A stretch of 47,129 nucleotides of DNA from Gammaproteobacteria bacterium (lineage in GTDB: Bacteria; Pseudomonadota; Gammaproteobacteria; UBA4575): the NCBI GenBank assembly GCA_013001685.1, contig JABDMD010000152.1, positions 1 to 47,129 on the forward strand. The letters are read 5' to 3'. The translations under genes were made by a program, and so were the position numbers. This document shows positions 5,917 to 38,904 of this stretch, piece by piece. Position 1 is the stretch's first letter. Each line of letters starts with the position of its first letter. A model generated the notes under the pieces. That model saw only the letters and a program-made list of their open reading frames with translations. It made no database searches and was not told the DNA's origin.

Positions 5917-5943
5917 TAAAGTATTTAAATTACACGCCGATAA
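5917..5943 (+). promoter_or_regulatory. Sigma-28 (FliA) promoter of fliC
   Basis: The -35 TAAAGTAT (5917-5924) and -10 GCCGATAA (5936-5943) are separated by 11 bases. This is an essentially exact match to the FliA consensus TAAAGTTT-N11-GCCGATAA. It lies about 97 bases before the fliC ATG, and the leader ends in a good ribosome site (AAGGAG) just upstream of 6041. Class IV expression of flagellin through FliA is expected for this type of locus. Confidence 0.93.
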
Positions 5944-6040: not shown

Positions 6041-7390
6041 ATGCCTCAAATTATTAACACAAACTTGTTCTCGTTGAATGCTCAACGAAACTTAAACACT
6101 ACGCAAGGTTCGTTACAGACCTCATTGGAGCGATTGTCTTCAGGTTTACGAATTAACAGTGCGAGTGATGATGCTGCAGGCTTAGCCATTGCCGAGCGAT
6201 TTACTTCACAAATTCGTGGATTAAACCAAGCCATTCGTAACTCAAATGATGGTATTTCGTTTTCACAAACGGCTGAAGGCGCATTATCAACTGCAACCGA
6301 TGCACTACAACGTGTTCGTGAGCTGGCGGTACAGTCTGCTAACGATACGAATTCATCTACAGATCGCCAAGCGCTGAACAATGAAGTGCAACAGTTGATT
6401 GCTGAAGTTAATCGTATATCGAATAGCACCCAATTTAACGGCCAAAATATTTTAGATGGCACTGCAAGTACTTTGGTGTTCCAAGTAGGCGCTAACCAAA
6501 ACCAAACCATTAGTGTGGATGGTGTGGATGCGCGTGGTTCAGTGCTTGGCGCAAATGTTTCCGTCAGTGGATCCATTGAGCAAGGAGCTATTAATACTGC
6601 AGTGACAACTGACACATTAACCGTGCAAGGTGTTTCGGTGGATCTTTCTGGTTTATCTGCTACAGCTGCTACAACCACACAGGTTGCCAATGCAATTAAC
6701 AATGTTACTGCAACATCAGGTGTGCAAGCTCAGCTAAATACAACGGTTGCAACAGGTCCATTGGTTAACGCTGCTGGTGCTGTTACGATTAATGGTGTGT
6801 CATTAACGCTTGCGGGCGATGCAACGGACCTTGATACCATTAACAACTTTTCAGCACAAACCGGAGTAACCGCTTCAGGTACTACTGGCGCCATTGTATT
6901 AAGTAATACTAATGGTTCTACCATTGAAATTGACAATGGTGTTGGACTAGGTGGCGCTGCACAAACTGTTCAAGCAGGTATTACACTTTCAGCAGCTGTT
7001 GGATCGACCATTGTTGTAGGCGGTGCTGCACCTGCAGTTCTAAACGGTAATGCAGTAGGTGCTGGTGGTGCAGACCAAACGGCAAATGGTATTAACGTTT
7101 TGACACAAGCTGATTCTAACAGTACGTTATTAACAGTAGATGCGGCTTTACAGCAAATTAATACTTTGCGTTCTGAACTGGGTTCGGTTCAAACTCGTTT
7201 TGAGTCAACCATTTCTAACCTTCAAATTACAGTTGAAAACCTGACTGCTGCACGTTCGCGTATTCAAGACGCTGACTTTGCGGCAGAAACTGCTAACTTA
7301 ACGCGTTCGCAGATTCTGCAACAGGCGGGTCTTGCAATTGTTGCGCAGGCAAACTCTTTGCCGCAAAACGTATTGTCACTACTTCAGTAG
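6041..7390 (+). CDS. fliC: Flagellin FliC
   Basis: This is the filament subunit (449 residues), exported by the flagellar type III system. The N-terminal D0/D1 coiled coil (INTNLFSLNAQRNLNTTQGSLQTSLERLSSGLRINSASDDAAGLAIAERF) and C-terminal D1/D0 (NLTAARSRIQDADFAAETANLTRSQILQQAGLAIVAQAN..LSLLQ) are strongly conserved. The middle, about residues 175-355, is a variable Ala/Thr/Val-rich domain without Cys. Only one flagellin gene is seen in the window. It is driven by the sigma-28 promoter just upstream, and flaG follows after a long inverted repeat. Codon use looks stronger (more GC-ending codons) than its neighbours, as expected for a highly expressed gene. Confidence 0.97.
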   Translation: MPQIINTNLFSLNAQRNLNTTQGSLQTSLERLSSGLRINSASDDAAGLAIAERFTSQIRGLNQAIRNSNDGISFSQTAEGALSTATDALQRVRELAVQSANDTNSSTDRQALNNEVQQLIAEVNRISNSTQFNGQNILDGTASTLVFQVGANQNQTISVDGVDARGSVLGANVSVSGSIEQGAINTAVTTDTLTVQGVSVDLSGLSATAATTTQVANAINNVTATSGVQAQLNTTVATGPLVNAAGAVTINGVSLTLAGDATDLDTINNFSAQTGVTASGTTGAIVLSNTNGSTIEIDNGVGLGGAAQTVQAGITLSAAVGSTIVVGGAAPAVLNGNAVGAGGADQTANGINVLTQADSNSTLLTVDAALQQINTLRSELGSVQTRFESTISNLQITVENLTAARSRIQDADFAAETANLTRSQILQQAGLAIVAQANSLPQNVLSLLQ

Positions 7391-31152: not shown

Positions 31153-31890
31153 ATGAATGAAGCAGCAACAGCAAGTTACACAGCAGTACAAAATCTAGAT
31201 TTTGAAGGTGTGGTAACACAGCATGCGTCTCTAGTTAAAAGAATTGCCTATCATTTGAAAGGCAGGTTGCCAGATACAGTATTAGTAGATGATTTGATTC
31301 AATCCGGTATGGTTGGATTATTAGAGGCTGCTAAAAATTTCAACCCAACCCAAGGCGCTAGTTTTGAAACTTATGCGGGGATCCGTATTCGTGGAGCAAT
31401 GCTAGATGAAATTAGACGTGGTGATTGGACTCCAAGATCTGTACATCGTAAATCTAGAGATATGATGGAAGCGATCAGGAAGGTTGAGAATAGAACATTA
31501 TCAAGTGCAACCGATACCGAAATCGCTCAGGAAATGGGTATTGAATTAAATGAATATAATAAAATCTTACGTGATTCATCGGTAGCTCAAGTTTTTAGTA
31601 TTGATGAAAGTGAAGAATCTACCGATTACAAAATTGAAATGAGCGCAGACTCTGATCCTGATAAAGAATATGTTGATGAGAAGTTTCATTCAGAGCTGAC
31701 AGAGTCGATTAGTCAATTACCAGAGCGTGAACGTTTAGTAATGTCTCTTTATTATGAAGAAGAAATGAATTTGCGTGAGATTGGCAGCTTGCTAGAGGTA
31801 AGCGAATCTCGTGTCTGTCAAATTCATGGTAAAGCATTAGTGTTGCTTCGCGCAAAATTGAGCGAATGGTTAGAGAAAAAGAGTCAATAG
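31153..31890 (+). CDS. fliA: Sigma factor FliA (sigma-28)
   Basis: FliA (245 residues) is the class IV flagellar sigma factor. Region 2 (LVKRIAYHLKGRLPDTVLVDDLIQSGMVGLLEAAKNFNPTQGASFETYAGIRIRGAMLDEIRRGDWTPRSV), region 3 and region 4 (LPERERLVMSLYYEEEMNLREIGSLLEVSESRVCQIHGKAL) are all intact. Exact FliA-type promoters are present before fliC (5917) and before the K+ channel gene (32944). FlgM, its anti-sigma factor, is not in the window. It follows flhG by 16 bases at the end of the fliL operon. Confidence 0.97.
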   Translation: MNEAATASYTAVQNLDFEGVVTQHASLVKRIAYHLKGRLPDTVLVDDLIQSGMVGLLEAAKNFNPTQGASFETYAGIRIRGAMLDEIRRGDWTPRSVHRKSRDMMEAIRKVENRTLSSATDTEIAQEMGIELNEYNKILRDSSVAQVFSIDESEESTDYKIEMSADSDPDKEYVDEKFHSELTESISQLPERERLVMSLYYEEEMNLREIGSLLEVSESRVCQIHGKALVLLRAKLSEWLEKKSQ

Positions 31891-31957: not shown

Positions 31958-32128
31958 ATGGTTGATAGCAATAAAATTAGTTCTCTAAAAAGAACTTGGC
32001 CGACACAGCCAATCAAAAAAGATCGCCCTGATCAAAATAGTCAGCATAGAAATAAGAAATATGATAAACCTAAATCAAATGAAGAACCTAAAGATCCAGG
32101 CGATACGATAATTGATGAATATGTATGA
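31958..32128 (+). CDS. Small hydrophilic protein, 56 residues, upstream of the DUF2802 gene
   Basis: The product starts MVDSNKISSLKRTWPTQPIK and ends DPGDTIIDEYV. It is Lys/Pro/Asp/Asn-rich with no hydrophobic segment. Two points support it: its stop overlaps the ATG of the next gene as ATGA, and small basic proteins ending in a similar GDTHIDEY-like tail are, as I recall, encoded next to DUF2802 genes at the end of Pseudomonas-type flagellar/chemotaxis operons. The ribosome site is poor. The function is unknown. I would not expect it to be found by annotation pipelines with a 60-codon cutoff. Confidence 0.65.
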   Translation: MVDSNKISSLKRTWPTQPIKKDRPDQNSQHRNKKYDKPKSNEEPKDPGDTIIDEYV

Positions 32129-32607
32129 TTAATATTGAGGATGTTATGGAAATATATAGCTTAAATTATATTTATATTAAGAATTTTTTAAATGATGCAG
32201 TATCGTATTTTAATTCTAATATTGAGCAATCTGCTTTGGTGTTTGCTATAGCAATTATGTTAATTTCAATATTAATTTTAAATAGAAAAATACTAAAATT
32301 AGAAAAAACACAATTTAATGAAATTGATGATATTACCAGCTTTAATCGTCTAATTGATGAAGAATTAGGCACTTTGAAAAAAGAGCAAAATGAGCTCAAT
32401 AAAGTTATTAAAAGTTCAGAACATAAATTACAATCTGATCGTAAACCTGATAATGAAGGTAAACTTTTTAATAATGCTCCATACACTCAAGCGGTGCAGT
32501 TAGCGCGACGTGGTTACGCGAGAGAAGACATTATATCTTTATGTTCAATTACAGAATCAGAGGCCGAACTTATTCTTGCGCTGCACTCAAATTCTAAGGC
32601 AGCATAA
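32125..32607 (+). CDS. DUF2802 membrane-anchored protein
   Basis: The 160-residue product has one membrane helix (about 34-50, SALVFAIAIMLISILILNR) followed by a coiled coil (LIDEELGTLKKEQNELNKVIKSSEHKL). The C-terminal DUF2802-like motif is PYTQAVQLARRGYAREDIISLCSITESEAELILALH. In Pseudomonas and relatives such a gene closes the fliA-cheYZAB-motCD-parA-cheW operon. Here it comes after fliA with only the 56-residue ORF between. Function is unknown. It begins at the ATGA overlap; an internal ATG at 32146 is an alternative start. Confidence 0.8.
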   Translation: MINIEDVMEIYSLNYIYIKNFLNDAVSYFNSNIEQSALVFAIAIMLISILILNRKILKLEKTQFNEIDDITSFNRLIDEELGTLKKEQNELNKVIKSSEHKLQSDRKPDNEGKLFNNAPYTQAVQLARRGYAREDIISLCSITESEAELILALHSNSKAA

Positions 32608-32710
32608 TTTTCTAAAACTTAGCATCCAGTACATTCAGTTAGTTAGAAGTAAATAACTAAAGAATTCTGATAATTAGTCGATATGTCTTCCTGTATAGGG
32701 ACGTATCGAT

Positions 32711-32908
32711 ATGTATCATAAATGCACATGGTGTAAGTCGAGAATTACATTTCGACCGATTTATTACACACAAGGATTTTTGCAGTTGAAACCAGGTTTT
32801 GGTGTCTACTGTAATGCTGCTTGTTCCTTATCAGCACATAGAGCTAATTCTGAGCTCAATATATCCATTCAAAATGACTCTCTAGACCCGAGAACATCGA
32901 ATAACTAA
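32711..32908 (+). CDS. Small Cys-rich putative zinc-binding protein
   Basis: The 65-residue product has four cysteines in its first 40 residues arranged CTWC ... YCNAAC (C-x2-C and C-x3-C), consistent with one zinc site. The C-terminal 25 residues are polar. AGGGA is nine bases before the ATG, which supports translation. I do not recognise the family. It lies between the DUF2802 gene and the sigma-28 promoter of the K+ channel, and may belong to the tail of the fliA transcript. Confidence 0.55.
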   Translation: MYHKCTWCKSRITFRPIYYTQGFLQLKPGFGVYCNAACSLSAHRANSELNISIQNDSLDPRTSNN

Positions 32909-32943: not shown

Positions 32944-32970
32944 TAAAGTAGTTATTCAAAAGGCCGATAA
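32944..32970 (+). promoter_or_regulatory. Sigma-28 (FliA) promoter upstream of the K+ channel gene
   Basis: TAAAGTAG (32944-32951), an 11-base spacer and GCCGATAA (32963-32970) have the same spacing as the fliC promoter and an identical -10. The next coding start on this strand is the ion-channel gene at 33097, about 120 bases later. Confidence 0.88.
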
Positions 32971-33096
32971 ATTAATAGTGTTTCAGGTTTTGGGTAGAAT
33001 GTGTACCTGCCGTAGATTTGTAACTAATTAAATACACTAATTTTATAAGCTGTTTGCATGGGCTGAGAAATAAAATCATGCGCAAATAATTATGCA

Positions 33097-34131
33097 ATGG
33101 AGCATGCATTGGCAAAAGTTTCATCAAGACAGCGCACTCATGAGCTATTAGAAATTGCTTCTGCAGGAGACAAGGTAAGCCGAGTAGTTGATGTTGGTTT
33201 AATTGTTCTTATATTGCTGAGTGTGATCTCCATCGTATTAGAGTCAGTACAAGTTATAAATGATTCATATCATGTATATTTCTATTGGTTTGAAGTTATT
33301 TCTGTTTCCATTTTTACAGTCGAATATATTCTAAGAATATGGTCGTGCGTAGAAAGTTCAAAAAATATAAAAAGCACATGCAGTAATTATATAATTAGAG
33401 TTCGTTATAGCTTTTCATTCTCAGCAGTAATTGATTTGCTTGCAATATTGCCATTCTACTTAATGATGTTTGGTTTATTTGGTAATGCAGATATGAGATT
33501 TTTGCGATCCTTTAGATTGCTACGAATATTTAAACTAACAAGGTATTCAGCTGCATTTGATGTATTAAATATTGTTTTTAAAGAAAATATTCGTGCATTT
33601 GGTGCAGCATTTTTTGTTTTATTAGTGGTAATGCTTTTAGCTGCTTCAGGAATGTACTACTTTGAACACGAGGCTCAGCCTAAACATTTTTCCAGCATTT
33701 TTGCATCAATGTGGTGGGCATCTACGACACTTACAACAGTAGGGTATGGAGATGTCACGCCAATTACAGGTGCTGGTAAAGTATTTGGTGTGCTTATTAC
33801 TGTGGTTGGTGTGGGTATGGTTGCATTACCCACTGCAATTTTAGCTTCAGCATTCTCTGAGCAACTTCGTTTAAGAGCAAACAAATATGAAAACCTTGCT
33901 GACAGAGCATATGAAGATGGGATTTTAACACTAGATGAAAAAGAAGAATTAGAATCATTGCGTGAAGAATTAGGATTAGCAAAAGGAGTTGCAGAGCAAA
34001 TATTAGCTAATGAAGAAGAAAAAATAATGTTAGCTAAAGATAATCAAGATGATAATAAGTGCCCGCATTGTGGGAATGACTTAATTGCCACTAATCAAGC
34101 TAATCCAATTGCATTAATTAAAGCAATTTAA
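33097..34131 (+). CDS. Voltage-sensor (Kv-type) potassium channel
   Basis: This is a six-helix K+ channel of 344 residues in the inner membrane. S1-S3 lie at about 33-125. The S4 voltage sensor carries arginine or lysine at every third position (R134, R137, R140, R143, K146, R149). S5, a pore helix and the selectivity filter TTVGYGD (213-219) follow, then S6. The cytoplasmic tail is a charged coiled coil (about 262-310) ending with a CPHCGNDL half zinc-ribbon. An exact FliA promoter is 120 bases upstream and a c-di-GMP enzyme gene follows after 15 bases. The start is not certain: the ribosome site for ATG 33097 is weak, and TTG 33109 would follow a GGAG. Confidence 0.9.
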   Translation: MEHALAKVSSRQRTHELLEIASAGDKVSRVVDVGLIVLILLSVISIVLESVQVINDSYHVYFYWFEVISVSIFTVEYILRIWSCVESSKNIKSTCSNYIIRVRYSFSFSAVIDLLAILPFYLMMFGLFGNADMRFLRSFRLLRIFKLTRYSAAFDVLNIVFKENIRAFGAAFFVLLVVMLLAASGMYYFEHEAQPKHFSSIFASMWWASTTLTTVGYGDVTPITGAGKVFGVLITVVGVGMVALPTAILASAFSEQLRLRANKYENLADRAYEDGILTLDEKEELESLREELGLAKGVAEQILANEEEKIMLAKDNQDDNKCPHCGNDLIATNQANPIALIKAI

Positions 34132-34146
34132 GAACAATCATAAAAT

Positions 34147-36264
34147 ATGCAAACAAACAATAAAAAAATAGTTTCTATAAATAAATTAAACGATGCATCA
34201 TCTTATGAAATGCAAATAGAGAGTCTTAAGAAACAGAAAAATCTTCTGCAAGAAGTCATTGATAAAGTGCCAAACTTGATATCGGTAAGAGATGCATCTG
34301 GAAAATTTATCTTAGTGAATAAAGCAATCGCTAATGTCTATGGATATGAAGCAAATGATTTGATTGGAAGGAATGATGAAGAATTAACACATCAACCTTG
34401 GAAAATAGAAAGTTGTATTGAAATAGACACAATGGTAATGCAGCAAAAACAAGAAAGAATAATTTTAGAAGAAACTATAAAAGACTCGAATGGTAAAAAG
34501 ATTTGGTTGCAAACTACGAAACAGCCATTTATCGACAAATCAAATGATGAGCTATATGTGTTAGGTGTTAGTACGAATATAACACAGCATAGAATTGCTA
34601 AAGAAAAGCTCATCCAGAGTGAGAAAAGATTCAAAGATTTTGCAGAAACAGCAGCCAATATTTTTTGGGAATTAGATAAAGATTTCAACTACACGTATAT
34701 ATCAGGCAGCATTAAAAATCTTATTGGTGATTCATCTATTTATCCATTAGGGAAAGGTTTTAATACTCTTTTTTCAAATAGTTCAAAATGTGAATTTGAT
34801 TTTGATGTTTATAAAGAAGCATTAGAAAAGCGTGAAAATATTTCAAATTTTACTTTTAATGTAAAAAATGAAAATAAAGAAGTAGACATATTTAGAATTA
34901 ATGCAAAATCAATTTTTAATAAAAACAAAAAATTTGAAGGATACCGTGGTGTAATTCGGAGTATCACAGAAGAGAAAGCGTTACTTGAGAGAATAGCATA
35001 TGACGCTAAACACGATGCGTTAACAGGCTTGGTGAATCGCAATGAATTTGATAAGCAGCTTAAAAGAGTGCTTAAAAGTGCCAAAGCTACAGAAGAGGTT
35101 TCTATTCTATGTTATTTAGATTTAGATCATTTTAAAGTAGTTAATGATGCAGCAGGGCATAGTGCTGGTGATCAGCTTCTTATTCGTTTGTGTCATATAT
35201 TGGAAGATAAAGTGCGTGCTTCAGACATTGTGGCTCGTTTAGGAGGTGATGAATTTGGAATTATTTTAGAACGTTGTCCGCTTAATAATGCAGTAACAGT
35301 TTGTGAAAATATTTTACGCAGTATCAACCAATTCGTCTTTGACTGGGATAAGCAAAGCTTTAAGGTAGGTGCTAGTATCGGTATCGCAATAATTACAGAT
35401 AAGTCTGAAAATGAAGCCTTGATAATGAGTCAAGCTGATATGGCATGTTATAGGGCAAAAGAGTTGGGTCGTAATCAAATGCATATTGCTCATACAAATG
35501 ATACTGCAATTATTGAACGATCTTCAGAATTTACATATGTAAGTGCGATTACGGAAGCGTTAAATAACGATCGTTTGTTCTTAATGAAGCAGCCAATTGT
35601 GTCTGTTTCTAGGGATGATAAAGAAATACCACATTATGAAGTGCTCTCTAGAATAATTGATGATAAAGATAATATTATTTCACCAAATGAATTTATAAGG
35701 GTAGCAGAACGTTATGGAATGATTACTAGAGTAGATCGTTTTGTAATTAAGAAAGCATTCCATTATCACATGCAAGCGCACCATAATGATGGTGTGGTGA
35801 TATCTATAAACTTGTCTGGCAATTCTGTAAGTGATCCTTATATCTTAGACTTCATAAAGCAAGAATTGGAAACTTCTAAATTAGAACCGAGTAGTGTTTG
35901 TTTTGAAATCACTGAAACCGCTGCAATTTCCAGTATAACTAAAGCAATTAATGTCATTAAGGAGCTAAAAGACATTGGTGTTAAATTTGCTTTAGATGAT
36001 TTTGGTAGTGGACTTTCATCTTTTGGTTATCTTAAGGATTTGCCCGTGGATTATCTTAAAATAGATGGAACATTTGTAAAAAATATGGTGGAAAGCGAAA
36101 AAGACCGAGCAATTGTTCGATCGATTAATGAAGTAGCCAAAGTTATGGGTATGCAGACTATTGCTGAGTTTGTTGAGAATGACGAGATACTAGAAATTCT
36201 CAAGGAAATAGGCGTTGACTATGCTCAAGGCTATGGGATAGGTAGGCCAGAAAGACTGAATTAA
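34147..36264 (+). CDS. PAS-PAS-GGDEF-EAL c-di-GMP turnover protein
   Basis: The 705-residue cytoplasmic product has a short coiled coil and a PAS domain (about 32-150, DKVPNLISVRDASGKFILVNKAIANVYGYEANDLIG). A second, diverged PAS (about 160-278), a GGDEF domain (282-450) and an EAL domain (460-705) follow. GGDEF is intact at 366-370 with an RASD inhibitory I-site (357-360). The EAL signature reads EVL (498-500), with the catalytic Glu kept. DDFGSG, LKID and QGYGIGRP are present, so phosphodiesterase activity is expected too. It is co-directional with the K+ channel gene (15-base gap), suggesting co-transcription from the FliA promoter. Confidence 0.93.
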   Translation: MQTNNKKIVSINKLNDASSYEMQIESLKKQKNLLQEVIDKVPNLISVRDASGKFILVNKAIANVYGYEANDLIGRNDEELTHQPWKIESCIEIDTMVMQQKQERIILEETIKDSNGKKIWLQTTKQPFIDKSNDELYVLGVSTNITQHRIAKEKLIQSEKRFKDFAETAANIFWELDKDFNYTYISGSIKNLIGDSSIYPLGKGFNTLFSNSSKCEFDFDVYKEALEKRENISNFTFNVKNENKEVDIFRINAKSIFNKNKKFEGYRGVIRSITEEKALLERIAYDAKHDALTGLVNRNEFDKQLKRVLKSAKATEEVSILCYLDLDHFKVVNDAAGHSAGDQLLIRLCHILEDKVRASDIVARLGGDEFGIILERCPLNNAVTVCENILRSINQFVFDWDKQSFKVGASIGIAIITDKSENEALIMSQADMACYRAKELGRNQMHIAHTNDTAIIERSSEFTYVSAITEALNNDRLFLMKQPIVSVSRDDKEIPHYEVLSRIIDDKDNIISPNEFIRVAERYGMITRVDRFVIKKAFHYHMQAHHNDGVVISINLSGNSVSDPYILDFIKQELETSKLEPSSVCFEITETAAISSITKAINVIKELKDIGVKFALDDFGSGLSSFGYLKDLPVDYLKIDGTFVKNMVESEKDRAIVRSINEVAKVMGMQTIAEFVENDEILEILKEIGVDYAQGYGIGRPERLN

Positions 36265-36373: not shown

Positions 36374-37915
36374 ATGACAATTTTAAATAATCCAGAACTA
36401 GTTACATTATTGGAGCGCTGTAGGGACCTGCCTACACCCCCGGGTGTAGCCGAACAGATTATTAGTCTAAGTTCAAATGCTAATAGTGATGTTGCAGTGC
36501 TTACTGACATTGTTAGCCTGGATCCTGCTTTGACTGTAAAAATGCTACGCATGGCAAACTCTCCCATATATGCGCTACAAGGGAAAGTAGATAATCTAAA
36601 GCAAGCAGTGATGTTGTTTGGATGGAACGGAACATTAAATTTAGCCCTTAGTTTTTCTTTAGTTTCAAACATTACTCCATCTATGAGTGATGGCCTTGAT
36701 TATGATTTTTTCTGGAAGCGATCTATAGCTGCAGCAGTTGCGTGTAGGCACTTTGGAAGAGTGGTGGGAGTCAACAGTAGAAAGGAAGACTTGTTTTTGC
36801 CAGGTCTTTTGCAAGATATTGGTATGCTTGCCTTGGATAAAGCAATGCCAGAATTATATAACGGTATTGGAAATCAGCAACACCAGCATAAATATATCCA
36901 AAAGCTCGAATTAGAAAAACTTGGAATTGATCATGCTCATGTAGGTGCGTGGTTATTAGGGCGTTGGAATTTACCAAAAAGAATTATTGATTTAGTAGCC
37001 ATAAGCCATCAAGAAGAAATGCATGTAGATAATGAACCTGAGTATCTTTCTGAAAACTGTATTAAGGTATCAGATGTTATTGCAGAATGCATATGCAATG
37101 ATGAAGACCAGAGAGATTATCATTATGCAGCTAATATATGTAATGAAGTACTTGGTTTAGATAAAACATCTTTCTTGAAAAATTTAGAAGAAATTACTAC
37201 AGAAATGCAAGAAACTGCAGCAATATTTGAAGTAGATGTGGGAGATCCAAAATTACTAAACTGTATTGCGGAACAAGCAAAAGAGTTATTGCTTTTGCGT
37301 AGTATGGAGACGTTAAAGACAGCAGAGGAGCTACACCAAGCTGCAGAATTTTTAGAGCTAAAAGCAAAAAAATTAGAATATTCTGCAAAAATGGATGCAC
37401 TTACAGATATATATAATCGTGGTCACCTCGAGATATCTTTGGGTACTGAATTTGAAATGTCAAAGAAATCAGGTTGGCCACTCACAGTTGTGATGGTTGA
37501 TCTAGATCATTTCAAAAAAGTAAACGATACTTACGGGCATGATTGTGGAGATAGAGCTTTAAAGTATGCAGTGGATTTATTAAAAGCATGTATAAGAGAT
37601 ACTGATTCGTTATATCGCTATGGTGGTGAAGAATTTGTAGTCATTCTCCCAAATACAAGCATAGAGGGTGCACAAAGTTTTGCTGAAAGGATTATGCTTA
37701 CCTTCAATAAAAATACGTTTGAATATAAGCAAGATATAAATATTTCTATAACTGTGTCCGCAGGTATTGCTATTCAAGATGAGGATAGTGATTTTAATGA
37801 ATGGGGTGATCTATTAAATGCAGCTGATCAATGCTTATATGAGGCAAAGCAATGTGGTCGTAATCAATACAAAATTTATGAGCATAATAAACCTATAAAG
37901 GCGGCAGTAGGATAA
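36374..37915 (+). CDS. HDOD-GGDEF diguanylate cyclase
   Basis: The 513-residue product joins an N-terminal HDOD domain (about 10-215) to a helical region (LKTAEELHQAAEFLELKAKKLE, about 313-336) and a C-terminal GGDEF domain. The active-site motif is GGEEF (417-421), preceded by the I-site RDTD (408-411), so it should make c-di-GMP with product inhibition. HDOD domains are non-catalytic relatives of HD hydrolases used as signalling modules. The next gene encodes a close paralogue of the HDOD half without GGDEF. The upstream 109 bases are AT-rich with TATAAA-like boxes, and no flagellar-type promoter is seen. Confidence 0.92.
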   Translation: MTILNNPELVTLLERCRDLPTPPGVAEQIISLSSNANSDVAVLTDIVSLDPALTVKMLRMANSPIYALQGKVDNLKQAVMLFGWNGTLNLALSFSLVSNITPSMSDGLDYDFFWKRSIAAAVACRHFGRVVGVNSRKEDLFLPGLLQDIGMLALDKAMPELYNGIGNQQHQHKYIQKLELEKLGIDHAHVGAWLLGRWNLPKRIIDLVAISHQEEMHVDNEPEYLSENCIKVSDVIAECICNDEDQRDYHYAANICNEVLGLDKTSFLKNLEEITTEMQETAAIFEVDVGDPKLLNCIAEQAKELLLLRSMETLKTAEELHQAAEFLELKAKKLEYSAKMDALTDIYNRGHLEISLGTEFEMSKKSGWPLTVVMVDLDHFKKVNDTYGHDCGDRALKYAVDLLKACIRDTDSLYRYGGEEFVVILPNTSIEGAQSFAERIMLTFNKNTFEYKQDINISITVSAGIAIQDEDSDFNEWGDLLNAADQCLYEAKQCGRNQYKIYEHNKPIKAAVG

Positions 37916-37944: not shown

Positions 37945-38904
37945 ATGGATTTATGTATACAAGACTTAATGGATAACGAGACGTTTTCTTTATTGGAAAA
38001 ATGTAATGATTTGCCAAGTCCTCCAGGTGTAGCGGATCAAATTATTCATCTTAGCTCAGATGCAAATTCAGATATCGATACGCTTGCAGAAATAGTAAGT
38101 TTTGATCCTGCACTTACAGCAAAAATTTTACGTATTGCAAATTCATCTTTATACGCACGCCGTACTAAGACAGAAAATATCCAACAGGCTGTAGTAATGT
38201 TTGGTTGGGAAGGTACATTAAACCTTGCGCTTAGTTTTTCGCTTGTAGGTAATATGAAAGATAATGGCGATGGTTTAGATTACACTTATTTTTGGAAGCG
38301 TTCTCTTGCAACTGCCGTAGCTTGTCGTTGTTTAGCTGGTGCTACTGGTTATGCGAAGAAAGAGGAATTATTTTTGCCTGGCTTACTTCAAGATATTGGA
38401 ATGCTAGCGATTGATAAAGTTCACCCAGAACTATATTCAGGTATTGGAGATAAACAGCAGGATCATCAAAATTTAATTAAATTTGAAAAAAGTAAATTAG
38501 GATTTGATCATGCTTTAGTAGGGGCTTGGTTATTAAACAAATGGGATATACCTGAAAAAATTACTGAGCTTGTATCTGCAAGCCATGGTGATAATTTAGA
38601 ATTTGTAAATGAAAATAACGCAGCAGCGGCTAAGTGTGTAGCCTTTGCAGGTGTTCTAGCAGATTGTATATGTTTCGATCATACTGATGAGGGTTATCTT
38701 AAAGAAGCAGATAAAGCTGAAAAAGAATTTGGTATCGATATTTTAGAATTCATGAACTTGATTGGTAGTGTGACAAGAGAGTTTTTAGAAACTGCTAACA
38801 TGTTTGATGTCGAGATTGATGATCCTGATATATTAGAGACTGTTGCAGAAATGGCTAAGATGACATTAGAGCTGAGTGGAACAAGCGCAAACCAAGCGGC
38901 ATAA
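37945..38904 (+). CDS. HDOD domain protein, paralogue of the upstream HDOD-GGDEF protein
   Basis: This 319-residue HDOD protein aligns along almost its whole length with residues 1-310 of the preceding protein. Shared blocks include DLP-x-PPGVA-x-QII, TLNLALSFSLV, FLPGLLQDIGML and GAWLL. It ends where the other continues into GGDEF. Tandem duplication followed by loss or gain of the GGDEF domain is the simplest explanation. The pair could form heterodimers through HDOD. The 29-base gap suggests one operon. No metal-binding HD motif is obvious, as expected for HDOD. Confidence 0.9.
   Translation: MDLCIQDLMDNETFSLLEKCNDLPSPPGVADQIIHLSSDANSDIDTLAEIVSFDPALTAKILRIANSSLYARRTKTENIQQAVVMFGWEGTLNLALSFSLVGNMKDNGDGLDYTYFWKRSLATAVACRCLAGATGYAKKEELFLPGLLQDIGMLAIDKVHPELYSGIGDKQQDHQNLIKFEKSKLGFDHALVGAWLLNKWDIPEKITELVSASHGDNLEFVNENNAAAAKCVAFAGVLADCICFDHTDEGYLKEADKAEKEFGIDILEFMNLIGSVTREFLETANMFDVEIDDPDILETVAEMAKMTLELSGTSANQAA

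Follow-up and report, generated by a model that had tools for sequence, protein, structure and literature searches.

A FliA-type promoter conserved upstream of a predicted Kv-type potassium channel gene in a gammaproteobacterial flagellar region

The closest described counterpart of the locus reported here is the FliA (sigma-28) class III regulon of Escherichia coli, in which promoters of the form TAAAG..-N-GCCGATAA serve flagellin and flgM, and in which the c-di-GMP genes yhjH and ycgR are FliA targets (PMC4183435). A c-di-GMP phosphodiesterase gene, bifA of Pseudomonas putida, is likewise partly under FliA (PMC5300878). Our locus resembles both systems but differs from them in containing an ion channel gene: in the E. 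coli mapping, the main text mentions neither a potassium channel nor any other ion channel (PMC4183435), and the bifA unit is without one (PMC5300878). The preliminary description of this DNA had called the channel and its c-di-GMP gene unusual for a FliA regulon. This holds for the channel, since we found no report of a K+ channel in a FliA regulon in the open-access literature, where an earlier report may nevertheless exist; it does not hold for the c-di-GMP half, given the known targets yhjH, ycgR, and bifA.

Three bacterial channels bear comparison. NavBP of alkaliphilic Bacillus is a voltage-gated cation channel involved in motility and chemotaxis (Ito 2004, cited in PMC4225499). It is, however, a Na+ channel of a Gram-positive host, and it has been studied in connection with pH homeostasis and the cycling of Na+; in the open-access literature, we found no mention of NavBP being expressed from a flagellar sigma promoter. 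Kch of E. coli (NCBIfam PRK10537; biofilm electrical work in PMC11928028) shares with our channel the six-helix bacterial K+ channel family, but our channel scores 25.8 bits against the Kch profile PRK10537, far below the cut-off of 425 for membership. Finally, an rpoF mutant of Acidithiobacillus caldus showed lower transcription of the potassium channel protein A5904_2356 and of the PAS/GAF GGDEF-EAL gene A5904_0969 (PMC6543871). A5904_2356 is a candidate counterpart only: the rpoF effect may be indirect, and in that paper the channel appears only in a list of transporter genes (PMC6543871).

The analyzed stretch of DNA, hereafter the window, comprises 47,129 nucleotides from a gammaproteobacterium. 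The features on which the argument depends are as follows.

5917..5943, + strand, FliA promoter of flagellin, used as the internal reference site; 97 nt before the fliC ORF 6041-7390
31153..31890, + strand, fliA, sigma-28 factor (NCBIfam PRK06986 FliA, 292.6 bits; cut-off, 201)
32125..32607, + strand, DUF2802 gene of the flagellar cluster (Pfam DUF2802), which marks the locus across families
32944..32970, + strand, predicted sigma-28 (FliA) promoter of the channel/GGDEF-EAL unit, TAAAGTAG-N11-GCCGATAA, exact core, conserved
33109..34131, + strand, predicted Kv-type K+ channel gene, 340 aa from TTG 33109 (344 aa from the alternative ATG 33097)
33496..33543, + strand, S4 voltage-sensor segment, RFLRSFRLLRIFKLTR, with six basic residues at every third position
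33733..33753, + strand, K+ selectivity filter, TTVGYGD
34147..36264, + strand, PAS-GGDEF-EAL gene, 705 aa (Pfam), 15 bases after the channel stop
36374..37915, + strand, HDOD-GGDEF gene (Pfam), in the same order in the congeners G001, G002, and G003
37945..38904, + strand, HDOD gene (Pfam), in the same order in G001, G002, and G003

The promoter sequence is TAAAGTAGTTATTCAAAAGGCCGATAA (32944-32970, positive strand). It is located 138 bp upstream of TTG 33109, with fliA lying 1 kb upstream of it. Its TAAAG -35 element, GCCGATAA -10 element, and 11-bp spacing are those of a sigma-28 class III promoter and, in agreement with the preliminary description, reproduce the architecture of the fliC promoter at 5917-5943. 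These two sites, one upstream of the channel gene and the other upstream of flagellin, were the only matches to TAAAG-N14-GCCGATAA in the window, for which base composition predicts about 0.003; 100 dinucleotide shuffles of the window contained none. The 14-letter core TAAAGT-N13-GCCGATAA occurred exactly three times in the 2.64-Mb genome, against a compositional expectation of about 0.04. The three cores precede flagellin, flgM (positioned after flgA and before flgN; these three names are our own reading of the sequences), and the channel gene. Both FliA and its anti-sigma factor FlgM are encoded, and the motif is found at fliC as well as at flgM. Judged from its sequence, this is the layout expected of a class III flagellar regulon.

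The product of 33109..34131 is, by the same kind of evidence, a Kv-type K+ channel, with voltage gating predicted from the regular spacing of the S4 basic residues. It has a six-helix Ion_trans fold (Pfam Ion_trans, 2.1e-32) and the K+ filter TVGYG. Its best solved relative by sequence in the PDB is Kv4.2 (2.7e-27), and Foldseek matched its predicted fold to KCNQ2 and Kv4.2 (model mean pLDDT, 72.5). The C-terminus carries CPHC. The gene had been thought to start at the first in-frame ATG, at 33097, but the closest ortholog has ACG at this position. An in-frame TTG at 33109, preceded by GGAG, is shared by the window and two congeners, and it is therefore the more likely start. The leader is more conserved at 33046-33112 (GCTGTTTGCATGGGCTGAGAAATAAAATCATGCGC...TATGCAATGGAGCATGCATTGG) than in its remaining part, and no unusual RNA fold was found in the channel mRNA leader (z, -0.27).

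The gene behind the channel was also as described before. It is predicted to encode a c-di-GMP enzyme in which both domains retain their key motifs: GGDEF with RxxD in one domain and EVLSR, NLS, DDFG, KID, and AQG in the other.

We compared the window with roughly 57 to 60 kb of flagellar region from each of two congeneric genomes. The channels of these two congeners are 83% and 74% identical to that of the window. Both keep the two promoter elements intact and 11 bp apart, but the letters of the spacer have diverged. The relaxed pattern TAAAG-N14-[GA][CT]CGATA was found in the same three places in the window and in these congeners, namely, before fliC, before a small four-cysteine ORF (see below), and before the channel gene, and nowhere else in the scanned flagellar regions.

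Class-wide and order-wide searches yielded about 70 channel homologs, many of them from genomes that look like fragmented drafts. One set of 19 genomes underlay both the family search and the order search. A contig search with the channel protein of the window returned only one ortholog, and order searches around G148 and G155 returned no further orthologs above the cut-off. Twenty-three channel orthologs belong to a clade of three families (the window's own, f184, and f161) on a tree obtained from a short search. Twenty-two of them, which as members of one clade do not represent independent events, are preceded by a site with no more than two mismatches in 13 positions and exactly 11-bp spacing; the remaining one is preceded by a site with three mismatches. 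The distance from the site to the start codon, which for distant orthologs was estimated from alignment, ranged from 58 to 138 bp. Conservation of the promoter before orthologous channels, proposed earlier as a check, is thus borne out in the congeners and in the clade.

The same criterion was reached by shuffled windows in 0.07% of cases. The site pattern read backwards was found before 0 of 70 homologs, and the site itself was found before none of the seven same-family paralogs (the second-copy channels of f161). The reverse-complement control was compromised in f161 by a conserved divergent site that points toward pilus genes in that family. The sites before the f161 channels are consistently weaker, with GCCGCTAY or GCCGTTAY as the usual -10 element. 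Versions of the site with a spacing of 11 or 12 also precede channel homologs in f131, f138, f182, and f187. In G184, the same motif is carried by flgM, flgK, and motA, so it is the FliA motif in that genome too.

The gene neighborhoods of some homologs are flagellar as well. In G384 (f182), the channel gene comes third in a motA-motB-channel series, and 2 nt separate its ATG from the motB stop. G458 (f187) shows the arrangement fliA-DUF2802-channel(-)-motA-motB-HDOD-GGDEF; the DUF2802 gene thus adjoins fliA and the channel gene there too. In f161, the channel gene lies between those for a pilus secretin and a sigma-54 activator; a GGDEF gene and motAB, bearing FliA sites, come next. The motAB linkage is separate from the promoter argument and points the same way.

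Earlier, a flagellar sigma promoter had been proposed to serve the channel and GGDEF-EAL genes. That proposal is strongly supported by the genome-wide specificity of the core and its conservation in congeners, and further by the recurrence of the site before orthologs in other families and by the motAB neighborhoods and operon. For these reasons, we consider it very probable that sigma-28 truly uses this site as a promoter, and that the Kv-type channel gene, which would depend on FliA in vivo, is a conserved member of the class III flagellar regulon.

The channel might instead serve general K+ or turgor homeostasis and be expressed from a housekeeping promoter too, with FliA adding expression in motile cells. 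Many other homologs are without the site although their genomes have FliA, indicating that FliA control is a property of only part of the channel family, and in P. putida, bifA has a sigma-28 promoter in addition to a sigma-70 one (PMC5300878). On the other hand, sigma-70-like sites in the region show no excess over shuffles (20 found, 23.7 expected), and the neighborhood and operon linkage of the channel is flagellar. We regard this explanation as unlikely, but it is the strongest of the alternatives.

A different possibility arises from a third congener, G003. It has lost the channel gene except for a remnant with CPHCG, and the promoter survives (GCCGATAT), now before the PAS-GGDEF-EAL gene. 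Since the promoter and this gene are retained, the unit has been kept despite loss of the channel, and since the promoter serves GGDEF-EAL alone, the channel is dispensable to the unit. The promoter could then be real but selected for the GGDEF-EAL gene, with the channel an operon passenger, and c-di-GMP enzymes are indeed known FliA targets (PMC4183435, PMC5300878). This is made improbable by f161, f184, f187, f131, and f182, where the site or the motAB operon precedes a channel gene that has no GGDEF-EAL gene directly behind it.

A functionless chance match at 32944-32970 is rejected as extremely improbable by the counts (about 0.04 exact cores expected per genome) and by conservation in congeners and clade orthologs, even though look-alikes with three mismatches do exist, such as the one before the G143 channel, which we set aside as chance because that genome has no FliA over the cut-off.

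If the channel gene belongs to the class III regulon, its flagellar promoter or motor-gene operon position suggests that the channel is made as part of the swimming apparatus, and it may reasonably be supposed to tie electrical state to motility. FliA, under FlgM control, would switch on the channel at the same time as flagellin, upon completion of the hook-basal body, and, in this genome, would transcribe it together with the PAS-GGDEF-EAL c-di-GMP enzyme. As the most likely role, we tentatively propose that K+ efflux through the channel, activated by depolarization, re-establishes or restricts the membrane potential of swimming cells. Such efflux would stabilize the electrical component of the ion-motive force powering the stators. 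Motile cells would become responsive to changes in K+ or voltage, and the neighboring c-di-GMP enzymes would act in parallel, adjusting motility or bringing it to an end.

A broader reading, for which the balance is nearly even but falls slightly on the side of doubt, is that this bacterial Kv family is dedicated to the flagellum: sigma-28 would confine its production to swimming cells, in some lineages by way of the motAB operon, and the channel would set the stator voltage or convert K+ or voltage signals into swimming responses. To our knowledge, most bacterial Kv-type channels still lack an assigned physiological role. A dedicated flagellar component would, if true, give bacterial Kv channels a defined role, and the conserved flagellar promoter together with the motAB-channel operon provides a direct, testable handle on that role. 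E. coli accumulates at high K+ (PMC11149930), and biofilm K+ signaling, which attracts swimmers (PMC11149930), would be connected to a candidate electrical element in the swimmer.

Between the DUF2802 gene and the channel promoter, we found two further features that do not appear in the preliminary description.

32658..32684, + strand, second, weaker FliA-type site, TAAAGAATTCTGATAATTAGTCGATAT, at the same place in G001, G002, and G003
32711..32908, + strand, small ORF of 65 aa with four cysteines, following the weaker site

The differences between this ORF and its counterpart in G001 fall mostly in third codon positions (4, 2, and 16 at the first, second, and third positions, respectively). 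Across four congeneric genomes, the ORF is 56 to 66 aa long and contains CxxC and CxxxC motifs; it had no NCBIfam match. The ORF is a candidate for a new small protein of the flagellar regulon.

G003 also differs in its chemotaxis genes. Locus L112 of this genome (G003:C121, 2477-5743) is a cheY-cheA-cheW-receptor cluster with a FliA-type site. Among CheW-domain matches, a CheA of about 720 aa is present in G003 and absent from the three channel-bearing genomes, whose CheA-type proteins look larger than in G003. The idea that the latter genomes lack chemotaxis proved wrong, as CheW/CheA-type proteins are encoded elsewhere in the genome. A trade-off between chemotaxis and the channel in G003 relative to its channel-bearing congeners is possible and is offered as a lead only.

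In the f161 loci (L079, L152-L157, L166, L168, and others), the conserved divergent FliA-type site, TAAAG-N14-GGCGACAA, lies on the opposite strand upstream of the channel gene. It faces the secretin gene, followed by MshEN-ATPase and T2SSF genes; judging by this arrangement, pilus biogenesis genes of f161 may be under sigma-28. In genome G000, FliA-type sites with one mismatch were seen at C55:53694, C95:3647, and C186:8408, 39 to 63 nt before ORFs for a 124-aa protein with a likely signal peptide, an ABC-transporter-like protein, and a DnaJ-like protein. These ORFs are candidates for further FliA targets.
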